IMG/VR virus record: IMGVR_UViG_3300042879_000337
Location: 1-34,563 of that record
DNA: 34,563 nt
Reading direction: 5' to 3' (one strand)
Origin: a virus
The position numbers and the translations under genes are program-made. Positions within the stretch are counted from its first letter, which is position 1. The number at the start of each line of letters is the position of its first letter. Shown piece after piece: positions 10,944-20,394 of the stretch. The notes beneath the pieces are model-generated. The model did no database searches. It was not told where the DNA came from and saw only the letters and a program-made list of their open reading frames with translations.

Positions 10944-11027
10944 TGGTGAGACTGGAGGGATTTGAACCCTCACGCATTAAGCGGCAGATTTTAAGTCTGC
11001 TGCGGCTACCGATTACGCCACAGTCTC
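10944..11027 (-). tRNA. tRNA-Leu (anticodon UAA)
   Basis: On the minus strand GAGACTG (from 11027) pairs with CAGTCTC as a 7-bp acceptor stem, followed by discriminator A and an encoded CCA (10944-10946). The anticodon stem GCAGA/TCTGC holds loop CTTAAAA with anticodon UAA (10991-10993). The T arm is GAGGG-TTCAAAT-CCCTC. A short extra arm (CGC/GCG) is present, as expected for a class II tRNA such as tRNA-Leu, and the D arm contains AATCGGTAG. 84 nt with CCA. It would read UUA (and UUG), a codon frequent in the late structural genes. Its 5' 15 nt overlap the end of a small ORF. Confidence 0.95.
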
Positions 11028-11392: not shown

Positions 11393-11774
11393 ACGAAGCT
11401 GCCTTTCTCATAAGCTCAGGGTTGTCTTTAAACAGTCCAAGAGCGCGGTTACAGTTATGACAAAGAAGCTTCCTTACTTTGCCTGTGTCGTGATCGTGAT
11501 CCACTGCTAGTTTTTCATTGTGGTTGTTCTTACCAATCAAGAATCCTTCACTATGACAAAGATAGCACTTGTAGTTCTGATCCTTCTTCATTTGCTCCAG
11601 AGTAGCATCGTCAATACCGTAGTTCCTTTTGTAATAGGCGTTCTTACCTTTGCAGGCAGAACTACAGTATAACTGACAAGGGTTTGTAGGAGTGAACACG
11701 CTCCCACAAGTCTTGCAGTTTTTATCTTTAAAGTAGCCATTCGGATACTTAGTGAGTCCCGTACCAGTTTGCAC
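11364..11774 (-). CDS. HNH / endonuclease VII-type nuclease
   Basis: 136 aa from a GTG at 11774, overlapping the polymerase 3' end by 26 nt. Four Cys pairs are visible: C20-x2-C23, C37/C41, C70-x2-C73 and C105-x2-C108. The catalytic stretch LAVDHDHDTGKVRKLLCHNCNRALG (His93/His95 region, residues ~89-113) is the recombination endonuclease VII / HNH core. The N-terminal zinc motif may bind DNA. It could be a free-standing homing endonuclease, often found beside phage polymerase genes, or a structural resolvase like T4 endonuclease VII; the genome already has an endonuclease I, which favours homing. Confidence 0.85.
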   Translation of the reverse strand: MQTGTGLTKYPNGYFKDKNCKTCGSVFTPTNPCQLYCSSACKGKNAYYKRNYGIDDATLEQMKKDQNYKCYLCHSEGFLIGKNNHNEKLAVDHDHDTGKVRKLLCHNCNRALGLFKDNPELMRKAASYVEEHKETH

Positions 11775-13443
11775 CTATCTTCCCTTCTGCTGCAACAGGA
11801 CAACGAAAATTCAGATCTTTACCGGCTTTAGCTGCTGAGGCAATGACAATCTCTTTTACTGTCTCAGCAAACTCAGGCTTAGTTTCGATCTGTACTTCAT
11901 CATGAACGGTTGCCACTAATTTGTATGGTATTTTTTTGTTTTTAAGTTCCTCTGAAAAGTTAACAAGCCACTTCTTAGCGATAATGGCCCCTGCTGATTG
12001 AAGAAGCGTATTGAGAGCAGAGTGTTCTGAACGAATGTTAAGTCTGCGCCCATCAAGTCCCGGTAGCCAGCCTTTTTGAGCGAACTTCGCAACCTTTTGC
12101 TTGAGTTTTGCATACGCAGGGACGTTCCGTTCAAAAGAATCAATAATTTTTTTTCCTTGAGAGGATGATCCACCAATGATAGAACCCACTTTTGCTGGCG
12201 AAGCCCCGTAGAGCGTGGCATAGAGCACTGTCTTCGCATCGTTGCGTGTAGGTACTCCAAACGCTTTTTGGTTTCTTGTATGTACATCACCGTTTACTAC
12301 CTCATTCGTATAGTCTTCGTCATTCAAGTAATGAGCAAAACACCTAAGCTCAATACCAGACAAGTCAACACCAACAAGCACGTTACCTTCTTCAACAGAC
12401 CAACACTCACGACATTCCTTACCATACACACTACTCGTGTTAGGTATTTGTCCCATGTTAGGGCTTGAATGTGTCATCCTGCCTGTCACTGCTCCATTGG
12501 TAATAACCTTTCCATGCACTCTACCGTCATCTTCTACGGCCTTGATCCAGCTCTCGATCTGTGCTACCCTTTTCTGGAGCATCAAATACTCTGCAATCAT
12601 CTTAGCCTCTGGGATGTTGATATTTGACAGTATGTTCTCATCGACCATAGCCTGCCCTGTCTCGGTAAACTGCTTAGGTTTCCATCCTAACTCAACTAGC
12701 TTTTCTCCGATCTGCTTTCTTGATCCGGGGTTGAAAGTAACCAACAAGGGCTTGAGTTCCTTTCCTGTTTTCTCGCTGACTCTCGGGACTTCGTAGGCAG
12801 GCCATCTCTGCTGCATCTGTTCATATATTCCTGCCATCTTTCCCTTGATGTCAGTAAGTAACACAGTGGCGTAGATGGTATCGAGTTTGAATCCATTTCG
12901 TTCCTGCTCCGCTATGATTGCCGCAACCTTGTGTTCCAAATCAACACTTTCTTGCGAAAACTGTTTCTGATCCTGTTCATTGCATAGGTTAAGATACAGC
13001 CTAGCAGTAACTTCAACATCCCTAATGCAATAATGCTCCAGAAGACCCACCAAGGGTTTATCAAAGCACTCTCCGTCATACTCCTGCCTCCTGTCCATCA
13101 TCCACTGCCATACAGCAGGGTAGTCAATCTTGTGAAACCCCAGTGTCCTCCCCCATGACTCTAGACTGTGACCTTGTTCCCTGCTCGGATCTAGAAGCCT
13201 GCTTACTATCAGTGTATCGAATACCTTCTTCAAGCCTATCTTCGTATTCCATTGCCTGTTCAGCACTGGAAAGTCGAATCCGATGCCGTTGTGAGCTACG
13301 ATCAATGTAGCGTCCTTTATAAAGTCCTGAAATGGCTTTGCTTCTTTCCATGTTCTTATTTCGCCTGTGTCAATGTCTTTCGTTACGACCAAGTGGATCT
13401 TCTTGTGAGATAGATCCGTTTCGATGTCGAGGACTAGCCTCAT
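11749..13443 (-). CDS. Family A DNA polymerase with 3'-5' exonuclease domain (T7 gp5-like)
   Basis: 564 aa. The exonuclease domain shows VLDIET (D6, E8), HNGIGFDFP (D57) and YCIRDVEV (Y138, D142). The polymerase domain has motif A VGVDLSGIELR (D360), motif B RNDAKTVLYATLYG (R400, K404, Y408, Y412) and motif C ATVHDEVQIE (D515). Tyr408 is the residue equivalent to E. coli Pol I 762 and T7 Tyr526. It lacks a 5'-nuclease domain, which is encoded separately. At 564 aa it is shorter than T7 gp5 (704 aa). It is the replicative polymerase, downstream of the primase-helicase and a 49-aa membrane protein. Confidence 0.96.
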   Translation of the reverse strand: MRLVLDIETDLSHKKIHLVVTKDIDTGEIRTWKEAKPFQDFIKDATLIVAHNGIGFDFPVLNRQWNTKIGLKKVFDTLIVSRLLDPSREQGHSLESWGRTLGFHKIDYPAVWQWMMDRRQEYDGECFDKPLVGLLEHYCIRDVEVTARLYLNLCNEQDQKQFSQESVDLEHKVAAIIAEQERNGFKLDTIYATVLLTDIKGKMAGIYEQMQQRWPAYEVPRVSEKTGKELKPLLVTFNPGSRKQIGEKLVELGWKPKQFTETGQAMVDENILSNINIPEAKMIAEYLMLQKRVAQIESWIKAVEDDGRVHGKVITNGAVTGRMTHSSPNMGQIPNTSSVYGKECRECWSVEEGNVLVGVDLSGIELRCFAHYLNDEDYTNEVVNGDVHTRNQKAFGVPTRNDAKTVLYATLYGASPAKVGSIIGGSSSQGKKIIDSFERNVPAYAKLKQKVAKFAQKGWLPGLDGRRLNIRSEHSALNTLLQSAGAIIAKKWLVNFSEELKNKKIPYKLVATVHDEVQIETKPEFAETVKEIVIASAAKAGKDLNFRCPVAAEGKIGANWYGTH

Positions 13444-13452
13444 ACGTATCCT

Positions 13453-13602
13453 TCACTTTAAATTAAGCCATAGGCCCACCTGAGCAAACGCATAACCTGT
13501 CCAGATCATGCCATTCGATAGTTCACCCTTGCTCCACTGCAAGACACCTACAATGAGATACCCGATTCCTGTGGCTCCCACAATCAAGTGCTCAATAGTC
13601 AT
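13453..13602 (-). CDS. 49-aa membrane protein
   Basis: The ATG at 13602 overlaps the primase-helicase stop (ATGA). The peptide has two hydrophobic helices, about residues 5-21 (HLIVGATGIGYLIVGVLQ) and 33-47 (GMIWTGYAFAQVGLWLNL), with a short polar loop (WSKGELSN) between them. Such a hairpin membrane protein between helicase and polymerase genes might tether replication to the membrane or alter host membrane functions; I recognise no family. The coupling signal makes translation very likely. Confidence 0.7.
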   Translation of the reverse strand: MTIEHLIVGATGIGYLIVGVLQWSKGELSNGMIWTGYAFAQVGLWLNLK

Positions 13603-15185
13603 AGTGTCTCCTCTTCCATCTCTAACATTCTACCAGTTTCCTTGACATATTGCAAGTCACAAGCTGGCCCGGTGTAGCCATTGAATCTGTTCTTCGCTAC
13701 GGCAACCTTTGTCTTGTGTCTTTCCTGTTCGTTCTCAGCCATGCTGTTCCTCTCCAGTGTAATTACTGCGTCAGATAGCTGGGCAATCGCTCCAGAGCCT
13801 CTGAGCTGAGACAGAGACACTACTTGCCCGTCCTCATGGCCTGCATTGCCCTGTGGCCTACGCAGGTGCGAGACACAGATCAAGGTAATCTCCAGCTCCT
13901 GAACCAGTGTTCTTAGCTTGGTCATCATGTTGTCTATGGCCTTTCGTTCATCTCCTAAGTCCTGACCACTAACAACAATAGAAATATGATCCAAGAAAAT
14001 AACACGGCAATCAAAACCCTTAGCCATGTACCTGATTCTGTTAGCAATGTTGTCAACATCACTAGAACCAAAATGGTCAAAGAGATAAACACGGTTAGTT
14101 CCAAGAGTAGCATTGAACGCATCCTTTAGTTCCTGTTCTGTCACCGGAGTGTCAGGCAAATGTAGTAACTTGTTCGCATGAAGAGACATGATACTACGGG
14201 CTGTCTTTCGTGTAGATTCCTCCAAAAACAATCCTCCGATGTTCCACTGAGTAGTCTTCAAGAGATGGTACAGAATCTCCCTCAAGAATTGACTCTTACC
14301 CAGTCCAGACCCTGCGGTGACCGTAATCAGTTCTGCCCTCCGCAGGCCATACAGCAGCTTGTTCAAGCCCTTCCAAGGATACATAGCCTCCGCAGGTTGC
14401 TCTGGCTTCCTGACTTCCTCCCAGAGATCTGCGGCATTGACAATACCATCAGGGATGTATGTCTCAGCCTTCCACCATTCGTTTACAAACTCCTTCGTAG
14501 CTCCTGCCTGCAGGTACTCACAAGCATCTTTGTAGCCACTCTTGTGCTTGACAATCTTGGCCTTCTGTCCGAATAGCTCTGCAACCTCCTTAGCGGCCTT
14601 CTGTCCGGGTTCATCAGCATCGAAGCAGATAACGATGTTCTCAAAGCTGTTGAGCCATTCGTACTGGGCTTTGCAATCCTTTAGGGCCGCTTGAGCACCG
14701 TTTCGAATGCTGACACAAGGCCATTGACTGCCTGTAAGTTGGTATCCTGCCAGTGCGTCAAGTTCTCCTTCGTATACCGTGACGTACTTCCCACCTCCGT
14801 GAAAGAGATGTTGACCGAATAGAGTGGCTGATCCGAAACTTCCTGCAATTGAGAAGCTCTTATCCGCAACCGTTCGTAGCTTAAGAGCAACGATAGTTCC
14901 GGCTGGGTCAGCATAAGGGTAATAGTGGCGCTCTGCATCTTGAGTAACTCCAAATTTCTCACAAGTTTGTTGTGTGATACCTCGATCAGGGATTGACTTT
15001 ACTTGTCCCTTGATCTCGACCTTCTTAGGTGCTACAGCGTCACGCATGACTGTTCTTTCTTCGCTTTGGTGTTCAAATTCAGTGTTCCCACACTTGAAGC
15101 AGTGCGTATGCCCGTCATCGTAGAGGCTGTTAGCGTCACTACTTCCACATTTATCGCAGGGTAGGTGACGCACGAATGTGCTCAT
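13599..15185 (-). CDS. Bifunctional DNA primase-helicase (T7 gp4-like)
   Basis: 528 aa. A zinc ribbon lies at C10, C13, C29 and C32; a TOPRIM primase domain has YEGELDALAG (E139) and VICFDADEPG (D189, D191); the RecA-like SF4 helicase has Walker A TAGSGLGKSQ (about 290-299) and Walker B RVIFLDH, followed by the SHLRRP motif and SQLRGSGAIAQLSD. This is the T7 gp4 arrangement: synthesises RNA primers and unwinds the fork for the family A polymerase. At 528 aa it is close to T7 gp4 (566 aa). It overlaps both neighbours by ATGA-type junctions. Confidence 0.95.
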   Translation of the reverse strand: MSTFVRHLPCDKCGSSDANSLYDDGHTHCFKCGNTEFEHQSEERTVMRDAVAPKKVEIKGQVKSIPDRGITQQTCEKFGVTQDAERHYYPYADPAGTIVALKLRTVADKSFSIAGSFGSATLFGQHLFHGGGKYVTVYEGELDALAGYQLTGSQWPCVSIRNGAQAALKDCKAQYEWLNSFENIVICFDADEPGQKAAKEVAELFGQKAKIVKHKSGYKDACEYLQAGATKEFVNEWWKAETYIPDGIVNAADLWEEVRKPEQPAEAMYPWKGLNKLLYGLRRAELITVTAGSGLGKSQFLREILYHLLKTTQWNIGGLFLEESTRKTARSIMSLHANKLLHLPDTPVTEQELKDAFNATLGTNRVYLFDHFGSSDVDNIANRIRYMAKGFDCRVIFLDHISIVVSGQDLGDERKAIDNMMTKLRTLVQELEITLICVSHLRRPQGNAGHEDGQVVSLSQLRGSGAIAQLSDAVITLERNSMAENEQERHKTKVAVAKNRFNGYTGPACDLQYVKETGRMLEMEEETL

Positions 15186-17578: not shown

Positions 17579-17656
17579 TCAGATTCCAAGGGCTAACAGG
17601 ACACCCCAAAGGGCGAAGACTACAAAGCATAGAATCATTGCAACAGTGTCGGACAT
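17579..17656 (-). CDS. 25-aa membrane peptide, first gene of the early unit
   Basis: The ATG at 17656 has AAGGAAA upstream and lies ~40 nt after the predicted start of the early promoter. After MSDTVA the whole peptide is a single hydrophobic helix (MILCFVVFALWGVLLALGI), typical of a single-pass membrane peptide. Short size makes chance occurrence possible, but the ribosome site and position right behind the promoter support it. Confidence 0.5.
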   Translation of the reverse strand: MSDTVAMILCFVVFALWGVLLALGI

Positions 17657-17703: not shown

Positions 17704-17731
17704 ACTATAGCATAGTCTTTCAGTGTGTCAA
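17704..17731 (-). promoter_or_regulatory. Strong early sigma70 promoter, leftward
   Basis: Minus strand TTGACA (17726-17731), 16-bp spacer, TATAGT (17704-17709), with TGC just before the -10 box (extended -10). It is the only good promoter upstream of the first leftward genes and abuts the DnaA-box cluster, so host RNA polymerase would read it immediately on entry. Confidence 0.75.
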
Positions 17732-17827
17732 TACCTAAATCGTATCTTTACAATTCTTTACAATAGATCCCTTTAAACGCCCTTGGTGCTGTTTTCTTTG
17801 TTTCCCTGCCCTAGCCCTTGGAAAATG

Positions 17828-17946
17828 TTATCAACACCTATTCTGGTACTTATCCACATTCCTGAGTCTTATATAAGACTTTGCCTGTGAATAACTTATA
17901 CCCTGCCTAGTAACTTATACACAGCCTGTGAATAGTTTGTGGATAA
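17828..17946. other. Putative replication origin: DnaA-box cluster
   Basis: Four perfect TTATNCACA boxes: 17850-17858 (+, TTATCCACA), 17886-17894 (-, TTATTCACA), 17915-17923 (+, TTATACACA) and 17938-17946 (-, TTATCCACA). One-mismatch boxes are at 17828-17836 (+) and 17927-17935 (-). A perfect 16-bp palindrome AGTCTTATATAAGACT (17865-17880) lies inside. Immediately right is an AT-rich stretch (about 17947-18003) that could unwind. There is no coding sequence here. The arrangement matches bacterial and plasmid origins that use host DnaA. Confidence 0.7.
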
Positions 17947-18023
17947 CCTTATCTGGACATATAAGTATGTAATTATATAAGGGTATAAGGTAGTACTTAT
18001 ATGGTCCTACATAGCCTCTCCCG

Positions 18024-18118: not shown

Positions 18119-18389
18119 TAGCCTTGACAGGGGGGGAGGGGTCTTGTGAGTGTGTTACTTTTGCGGGAGCCTCTAAAGTCCACAAAAAAGTAAAATAAGA
18201 CCTAAGATGCACTAAATTGGTGCATAAGAGGATAACTGCTAAGTTCTTGTCAGGCTTAGACTTAACATAATTATTGGTAGAAATCCTCCAGAGGAATCTG
18301 AGCACCCTGTAATGGGGAACTTTAAAGGACTGGATGTATCACATAAGAGACAATAAATAAAAATATTTTAAAAATAATTGTAACAAAGC
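18119..18389. other. Non-coding stretch upstream of late promoter
   Basis: No convincing coding sequence; the open frames here lack ribosome sites and family resemblance. It holds a G-run (about 18128-18138) and becomes very AT-rich (about 18340-18388, including long A and T runs) just upstream of the late promoter, which may act as an UP element or unwinding region. Confidence 0.5.
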
Positions 18390-18418
18390 TTGACTTTTAA
18401 GGAAAAGTATGGTATAAT
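18390..18418 (+). promoter_or_regulatory. Main late promoter, sigma70 consensus
   Basis: TTGACT (18390-18395), 17-bp spacer, TATAAT (18413-18418), preceded by an A/T-rich upstream region. The core and spacer ends (GCTTGACTTTTA, then TGGTATAAT) are almost the same as the promoter at 22840. It transcribes rightward into the terminase genes after a ~275-nt leader. Confidence 0.85.
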
Positions 18419-18762: not shown

Positions 18763-19148
18763 CCAAACCATCAGGTAACAAAAAAGGTAGACCTCCAAAG
18801 TCTGACATTGCAGAGATCAAGGAGAAGAGATCAGTAGGTAGACCCAAGGGTGATGCTGCTATCATTAATGAATACAAGCTTAGGATGCTTAACTCTCCTA
18901 AGTCAGCTAAGGTCTTAGAAGCTATCTATGATGCAGCTCTTAACGATGAACATAAGAACCAAGCTGCTGCGTGGAAACTAATTGTAGATAGGATTATCCC
19001 TGTATCTGCTTTTGAAGCCACTAAACAGGGTGGAGGTACACCCCAGATCTCTATCAACATCAGTGGACTGTCTAGCCCCACAGCTGAGGTTTTAGAAGAT
19101 ATAACAGATATACAGGTCAAGGAATACTCAGACGATGACAACCCTTGA
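18759..19148 (+). CDS. Probable small terminase subunit with AT-hook-like N-terminus
   Basis: 129 aa; AAGGAG at 18746-18751 is 7 nt before the ATG. The N-terminus has two AT-hook-like motifs (KKGRPPKS, residues ~8-15, and VGRPKG, ~26-31), followed by a helical region (EYKLRMLNSPKSAKVLEAIY) and an acidic C-terminus (EYSDDDNP). Direct position before and 14-nt overlap with the large terminase is the main evidence. It would recognise viral DNA and start packaging; AT-hooks suggest minor-groove binding of AT-rich DNA. Confidence 0.78.
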   Translation: MTKPSGNKKGRPPKSDIAEIKEKRSVGRPKGDAAIINEYKLRMLNSPKSAKVLEAIYDAALNDEHKNQAAAWKLIVDRIIPVSAFEATKQGGGTPQISINISGLSSPTAEVLEDITDIQVKEYSDDDNP

Positions 19149-20394
19149 CTTTAAACTACTTAAATGGCAACAACAGGTATTCAAGGATTCTGCACGATTC
19201 AAAGTCGTAGCAGCAGGGCGAAGGTGTGGTAAGTCCAGACTGTCTGCCATTACCTTGCTTATCGAGGCTCTTAACTGTCCTGAAGGCTCTAGCGTCATGT
19301 ACGTAGCTCCTACACTGGGACAAGCTAGAACTATTATCTGGGAACTGTTACACGATCTAGGTAGACCTGTTATCAAGTCTTCCCATGTCAATAACCTTGA
19401 GATTACATTAATCAATGGAAGGAAGATCCTTGTTAGAGGTGCTGATAACCCTGATAGCCTTCGTGGTGTGTCTCTTACTTACCTTGTACTTGATGAATGT
19501 GCCTTCGTCAAGCAGGATGTCTGGGAAAAGATTCTACGAGCTGCTTTGTCGGATAAGAAGGGCCGTGCTCTATTCATATCTACTCCTAGCGGTCGCAATT
19601 GGTTTTATGATACCTACAAGTTGGGTCAATCGGAAACAGACCCAGAGTGGAGAAGCTGGCACTTTACGACACAAGATAACGAAACTATTGATCCTGCTGA
19701 AATTGAAGCAGCCAAAAGAACCCTAAGCTCCTTCGCATTCAAACAGGAATACTTGTCTAGCTTCGATACCGCAGGAGCTGATGTCTTCAAGGAAGAGTGG
19801 TTCAAGATCTCTCCTGAGCCTCAGTACGGTAGCTACGTAGTGGCTATTGACTTGGCAGGCTTTGAAGAGGTAGCCAAGACTGCAGGGGCTGCAAAGAAAC
19901 GCTTAGACGAGTCAGCTATCGCCATTGTCAAAGTAGAAGATAACGGAGACTGGTGGGTAGATAAGATTCTGCACGGTAGGTGGGACATTAGAGAAACTGC
20001 TGTCAACATCCTCAAGACTATTCGTGACTATCAACCTACAGCGGTAGGTATAGAGCGAGGAGCTTTGAAGAATGCTGTGCTTCCATATCTGAACGATCTG
20101 ATGCGTAAGAATAACATCTACGCTCATATTCAAGACCTGACGCACGGTAACAAGAAGAAGACTGATCGTGTTGTCTGGAGCCTTCAAGGGCGTATGGAGC
20201 ATGGCAGGATCAAGTTCAATGAGGATGAGGACTGGGAGGAGTTTAGAGATCAGTTATTGATGTTCCCCACAGCAGGGGTTCACGATGACTTGGTTGATGC
20301 TCTATCCTATGTTGACCAATTAGCCATTACTTCGTACCAGCAAGACTACGAAGAAGATGAACATCTTATTTTAGATCCAATATCGGGGTACTAA
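19135..20394 (+). CDS. Terminase large subunit (packaging ATPase/nuclease)
   Basis: 419 aa. ATPase domain: Walker A AAGRRCGKS (26-34), Walker B LVLDE (117-121), coupling motif around STPSG (149-153). RuvC/RNase H-like nuclease domain: D239 (VVAIDLAG), E307 (VGIERGA) and HDDLVDAL (D384/D385/D388). Length and motif order are typical of headful or T7-like TerL; the short C-terminus suggests the compact podoviral type. It pumps DNA into proheads through the portal encoded three genes downstream. Confidence 0.95.
   Translation: MTTLDFKLLKWQQQVFKDSARFKVVAAGRRCGKSRLSAITLLIEALNCPEGSSVMYVAPTLGQARTIIWELLHDLGRPVIKSSHVNNLEITLINGRKILVRGADNPDSLRGVSLTYLVLDECAFVKQDVWEKILRAALSDKKGRALFISTPSGRNWFYDTYKLGQSETDPEWRSWHFTTQDNETIDPAEIEAAKRTLSSFAFKQEYLSSFDTAGADVFKEEWFKISPEPQYGSYVVAIDLAGFEEVAKTAGAAKKRLDESAIAIVKVEDNGDWWVDKILHGRWDIRETAVNILKTIRDYQPTAVGIERGALKNAVLPYLNDLMRKNNIYAHIQDLTHGNKKKTDRVVWSLQGRMEHGRIKFNEDEDWEEFRDQLLMFPTAGVHDDLVDALSYVDQLAITSYQQDYEEDEHLILDPISGY

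Follow-up and report, generated by a model that had tools for sequence, protein, structure and literature searches.

The control region of the phage studied here holds a tight cluster of consensus boxes for host DnaA, and the question that it raises is whether such a cluster serves as an origin of replication, as the original prediction proposed for a phage with T7-like replication proteins, or whether it acts on the early promoter beside it, a role that the same prediction had named as a second option.

DnaA boxes between two diverging operons

The window, that is, the whole stretch of DNA that was analysed, is a 34,563-bp IMG/VR record of a freshwater-type phage and is possibly a fragment. 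Its leftward genes start at ~17.5 kb and encode a T7-type primase-helicase, a family A polymerase, a 5'-3' exonuclease and endonuclease I, in agreement with the replication proteins predicted for it, and the same operon also includes endonuclease VII, ThyX, MazG and a class II RNR. The rightward genes, starting at 18.76 kb, encode the terminase, an SU10-like portal and the capsid, and the cluster was indeed found in the non-coding region between these two operons. The claim that the genome has no phage RNA polymerase agrees with the search for PF00940, which was undetected in 33 records, comprising the window (as a possible fragment) and 32 others, with S-CBP3 detected as positive control. The four replication proteins are those of T7-like (Autographiviridae-type) phages, from which the window differs in that a phage RNA polymerase was unfound and in that its divergent control region carries host-type sigma-70 promoters. 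An Rfam scan of the window returned a tRNA as the sole match (Table 1).

The cluster comprises four perfect DnaA boxes (TTATNCACA) in alternating orientation and two boxes with one mismatch each, exactly as first reported, and a scan of the whole record revealed that 17850-17946 holds all four of its perfect TTATNCACA sites. More than two boxes per 120 bp were observed in none of 2000 first-order Markov genomes, and the Poisson expectation for four boxes in 97 bp was ~9e-9. The six boxes are spaced at 0, 22, 58, 87, 99 and 110 around a central palindrome, and it was observed that divergent relatives from IMG/VR, recognised by their TerL or primase-helicase, present the arrangement +0, +22, -58, +87/88, -99/100 and -110/111, in which the spacer sequence has diverged and single boxes drift by one base. 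Among 56 distinct elements, retrieved by box 2 and the palindrome only, 45 had box 3 at the expected offset and 30 had box 1, with the reversed pattern giving 0 and 0. The position of box 1, imperfect in the window, reads TTATCCACA in L123, L164 and the cultured phage DC31, and the core of the element is nearly symmetric. The cluster is a defined and highly non-random element of consensus DnaA boxes; the initial observation was correct and reaches further than first described.

Table 1. Coordinates of the features of the window and of the element in Limnohabitans phage DC31
Feature	Position	Strand	Remark
Family A DNA polymerase (PolA)	11749..13443	-	leftward operon
T7-type primase-helicase (phrog_239)	13599..15185	-	leftward operon
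tRNA-Leu (taa)	10944-11027	-	between replication genes
Leftward sigma-70 promoter, early operon	17704..17731	-	TTGACA-16-TATAGT, TG before -10, 11/12
Whole cassette	17769..17957		189-bp block, replaced by ~26 bp in L007
DnaA box 1 TTATCAACA	17828..17836	+	one mismatch
DnaA box 2 TTATCCACA	17850..17858	+	perfect
Palindrome AGTCTTATATAAGACT	17865..17880		inner GTCTTATATAAGAC = inner 14 bp of SdhR motif TCTTATGTCTTATATAAGACATAAGA
DnaA box 3 TTATTCACA	17886..17894	-	perfect
DnaA box 4 TTATACACA	17915..17923	+	perfect
DnaA box 5 CTATTCACA	17927..17935	-	one mismatch
DnaA box 6 TTATCCACA	17938..17946	-	perfect
AT-rich tract	17947..18010		69% AT; also in L007
NtrC-type palindrome TGCACTAAATTGGTGCA	18208..18224		~170 bp upstream of rightward promoter
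Rightward sigma-70 promoter	18390..18418	+	TTGACT-17-TATAAT, 11/12
Terminase large subunit (TerL)	19135..20394	+	rightward operon; basis of tree
Element in DC31	20233-20350

The central palindrome and other putative regulator sites

The 16-bp perfect palindrome that had been noted among the boxes lies between boxes 2 and 3. A literature search on its letters led to a survey of the GntR family in which TCTTATGTCTTATATAAGACATAAGA is given as the site of SdhR, a member of the HutC subfamily with an operator in proteobacteria (PMC4494728). The inner palindrome of this motif is matched at 14/14 positions at 17866-17879, and the outer arms of the full motif, TCTTAT...ATAAGA, were absent from the window. 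The cassette site and the published operator (PMC4494728) are identical in these inner 14 bp and differ in that the former is placed in a phage control region, has no outer arms and is accompanied by symmetric inverted DnaA boxes. In the elements of the relatives, the TCTTATATAAGA palindrome is invariant between boxes 2 and 3, and a longer TCTTATG-TCTTATATAAGA form was found without DnaA boxes in four relatives (L015, L021, L055 and L068).

Querying a plasmid collection with the SdhR motif returned 23 records, 21 of which were Burkholderiaceae replicons, and in three Burkholderiales records that were examined the motif stood directly upstream of acnB (L358, L360) and of isocitrate lyase (L361). 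When palindrome sites were retrieved without a box criterion, a perfect DnaA box was found within ~70 bp of 48 out of 102, and several of the remaining sites were located inside genes or in arrays of palindromes. Regarding the protein that would recognise the site, no GntR gene above the cut-off was found in 20 genomes. Since the palindrome shares the core of the SdhR motif, metabolic genes lie behind this motif and no GntR gene above the cut-off was found in the phages tested, the palindrome is most likely the operator of a host regulator.

A DnaA C-terminal-domain gene above the cut-off was likewise found in none of the phages tested, and a phage-encoded DnaA or GntR protein was rejected as the binder for the tested records on these grounds. 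It was also observed that other viral contigs harbor three to four SdhR-core palindromes, mostly 23 bp apart (L351, 664-746; L284, 4341-4433; L286, 2561-2620; L319; L339), and these arrays are possibly decoys or operators.

Another putative regulator site was found nearer to the rightward promoter. The perfect palindrome at 18208-18224, which meets the GCACYNNNWTGGTGC consensus and is conserved in several relatives, has the form of an NtrC site, with E. coli glnA as the control. Searching the literature by the letters of this site found no paper. Sites of this type gave 19 matches, some of them counted twice owing to overlapping patterns, over 120 kb of sequence from this upstream region in the relatives, versus 0 in 427 kb elsewhere. 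In a second cassette type, found in L114, L160, L161 and others, four direct DnaA boxes are combined with NtrC-like sites, and one of these, TGCACCATGTTGGTG, is similar to GCACCATGTTGGTGC, the site at E. coli glnA. The likeness to NtrC enhancers therefore covers both the window palindrome and the second cassette type, the difference being that no sigma-54 promoter was found in the window near 18208-18224. In three further relatives (L013, L014 and L018), ~1.2 kb upstream of TerL, three copies of a GGCAAATATTGCC-like palindrome replace the DnaA cassette.

Spread and exchange of the cassette among phages

The element was identified in at least 119 IMG/VR contigs belonging to several unrelated lineages. 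It occupies a single intergenic place per genome, and most carriers have one palindrome. Contigs of ~36, 37, 53 and 78-84 kb carry it and have no TerL matching that of the window, and in one more carrier group a different terminase-like gene lies ~1.2 kb away from it. Phage DC31, a 76-kb long-tailed phage whose host is Limnohabitans sp. DCL3 (PMC12195039), presents five boxes and the palindrome inside a 930-bp intergenic gap. From the host of DC31 and the occurrence of the SdhR motif, the host of the phage studied here is probably a member of the Burkholderiales. No gene family was common to all carriers, small early genes being shared by subsets only. Among the genes close to the element, phrog_21585 (~74 aa) was found in 33 carriers at a median of 499 bp, including contigs without this TerL (e.g., L282:18514-18738, minus strand), and in one carrier group (L181, L193, L196, L234 and L238) CCCACTGGGTCAA-type repeats are interleaved with the DnaA boxes and the palindrome. 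No plasmid-type homologue of the 146-bp core was found. The view that the element is a copy of a host oriC was rejected, the core pattern being present in only 1 of 84,980 cellular species genomes as against the viral contigs.

The comparison of homologous regions, which had been expected to show conservation in related phages, gave a divided outcome: spacing and orientation were conserved in divergent relatives, but the nearest sister was devoid of the whole block. This sister, L007, is a single metagenome contig whose TerL and primase-helicase are 96% identical to those of the window. The alignment of the two stops at 17768 and resumes at 17958 with nothing between kept, and L007 retains the AT-rich tract as well as the region around the leftward promoter. 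The AT-rich tract reported beside the boxes does exist, but it lies outside the cassette, because it is retained by a sister without boxes. DNA resembling a 25-codon hydrophobic micro-ORF (MSDTVAMILCFVVFALWGVLLALGI; 17579-17656, minus strand), which is the first frame past the leftward promoter, was also present in L007 and in L088.

Replacement at this position was found to be frequent. In a TerL tree of 91 phages, in which carriers of the DnaA and SdhR sites are over-represented because many were retrieved by pattern, so that their share is biased by ascertainment, cassette states switch 27 times; at least 12 changes of the DnaA plus SdhR state are forced by supported branches, and one pair with identical TerL differs in cassette state. 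Many relatives presented other repeats or none at the cassette position, and several different DnaA-box arrays were found there. These results altogether demonstrate that the cassette has been exchanged between near-identical phages and has spread over unrelated ones.

Possible roles in promoter control, replication and titration

The early promoter predicted from a -35 element at 17731 was recovered in full, and a promoter of this kind is not peculiar to the window. Of 28 distinct carriers, 11 have a leftward sigma-70 promoter scoring at least 10/12 at 60-310 bp to the left of the element, as against 0/28 on the opposite strand and 4% in shuffled sequence; in the other 17 no strong consensus promoter was found within 310 bp, and none was found beside the element of DC31. 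The suggestion that DnaA could time the adjacent early promoter fits better than an origin does.

The reading that we favor, and to which we give about even confidence, is that an exchangeable cassette controls the leftward early promoter from ~100-200 bp upstream and that 17828-17946 is its DnaA/SdhR version. Host DnaA would bind the six boxes of fixed geometry, and an SdhR-like regulator of the TCA cycle, from the GntR family of the host, would bind the central palindrome between the inverted boxes 2 and 3; both would then assemble into a single nucleoprotein complex by which early-promoter activity is set, through activation or repression, according to the growth and carbon state of the host. 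Early transcription may also start replication, as suggested by a T7-type replisome with no RNA polymerase of its own detected. The binding of both proteins, the direction of the effect and any coupling to replication are inferred. A partial precedent is found in lambda, in which DnaA stimulates transcription next to ori-lambda (PMC3985674): in both cases host DnaA boxes stand beside a phage promoter in a replication control region. Lambda differs in that its DnaA-box-like sites are few and its initiator, O, is its own (PMC3985674), whereas the cassette has a fixed, exchangeable arrangement of six boxes around a metabolic-regulator operator, in phages with a T7-type replisome.

According to the original prediction, host DnaA would open the cluster as a replication origin, onto which the T7-type primase-helicase of the phage would load, with the palindrome as an accessory or regulatory site. 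The consensus boxes are non-random, oriented, evenly spaced and confined to one intergenic place per genome, relatives have different DnaA-box arrays at the same place, and the replisome is T7-type with its RNA polymerase undetected, all of which would suit an origin. The window has its lowest cumulative GC skew at 17926, which would point the same way, but skew follows gene direction, and in DC31 its minimum lies away from the element, for which reason skew was set aside as evidence on an origin. Against an obligatory origin stand the absence of the element from L007, the frequent changes of cassette state on the TerL tree, the lack of a perfect box in 25 of the 41 relatives with the region covered, and the lack of a conserved AT-rich flank, whose AT content across 30 oriented carriers was 0.61/0.58 versus 0.577. 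The element is also unlike a host oriC: both present clustered intergenic consensus boxes in both orientations, but the cassette has no conserved AT-rich unwinding flank, is dispensable in a close relative and is nearly restricted to viral records. A search of the literature yielded no phage DnaA-box origin of a comparable kind. Mobility equal to that observed would be expected of an exchangeable origin, and a DnaA-dependent origin, perhaps started by early transcription as at ori-lambda (PMC3985674), is possible; an origin opened directly by DnaA seems to us rather unlikely.

Two other explanations appear weaker. Boxes present on many phage copies could act as decoys that titrate host DnaA and halt host initiation, as the palindrome would titrate SdhR and free TCA genes for energy; the high-affinity consensus boxes and the contigs with three to four SdhR-core sites 23 bp apart would agree with this, but titration needs no fixed geometry, orientation or single-copy placement upstream of leftward promoters, and with one palindrome in most carriers we regard it as improbable. 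That a phage-encoded protein binds the repeats, their likeness to DnaA boxes being due to chance, is more improbable still: small unknown genes do adjoin the element in several lineages, but no single adjacent gene family is common to unrelated carriers, and two unrelated architectures have only the exact DnaA consensus in common.

Returning to the control cassette, its presence in unrelated phages suggests that these phages may read the growth and metabolic state of the host at the start of infection. More tentatively, and with somewhat less than even confidence, unrelated lytic phages, probably of Burkholderiales, may share and exchange an element for host DnaA and a host TCA regulator as one sensor of cell cycle and carbon for early transcription and replication, of which the sister versions would combine DnaA with NtrC-type nitrogen control. 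The question is testable with DC31 and its cultured host Limnohabitans sp. DCL3, and the element could mark the host group of uncultivated phages. Moreover, the element could be one way for T7-type replisomes to operate when a phage RNA polymerase is lacking, and it suggests how early expression, perhaps together with replication, could be tied to the growth, carbon and nitrogen state of the host in environmental lytic phages that have no regulator of their own.
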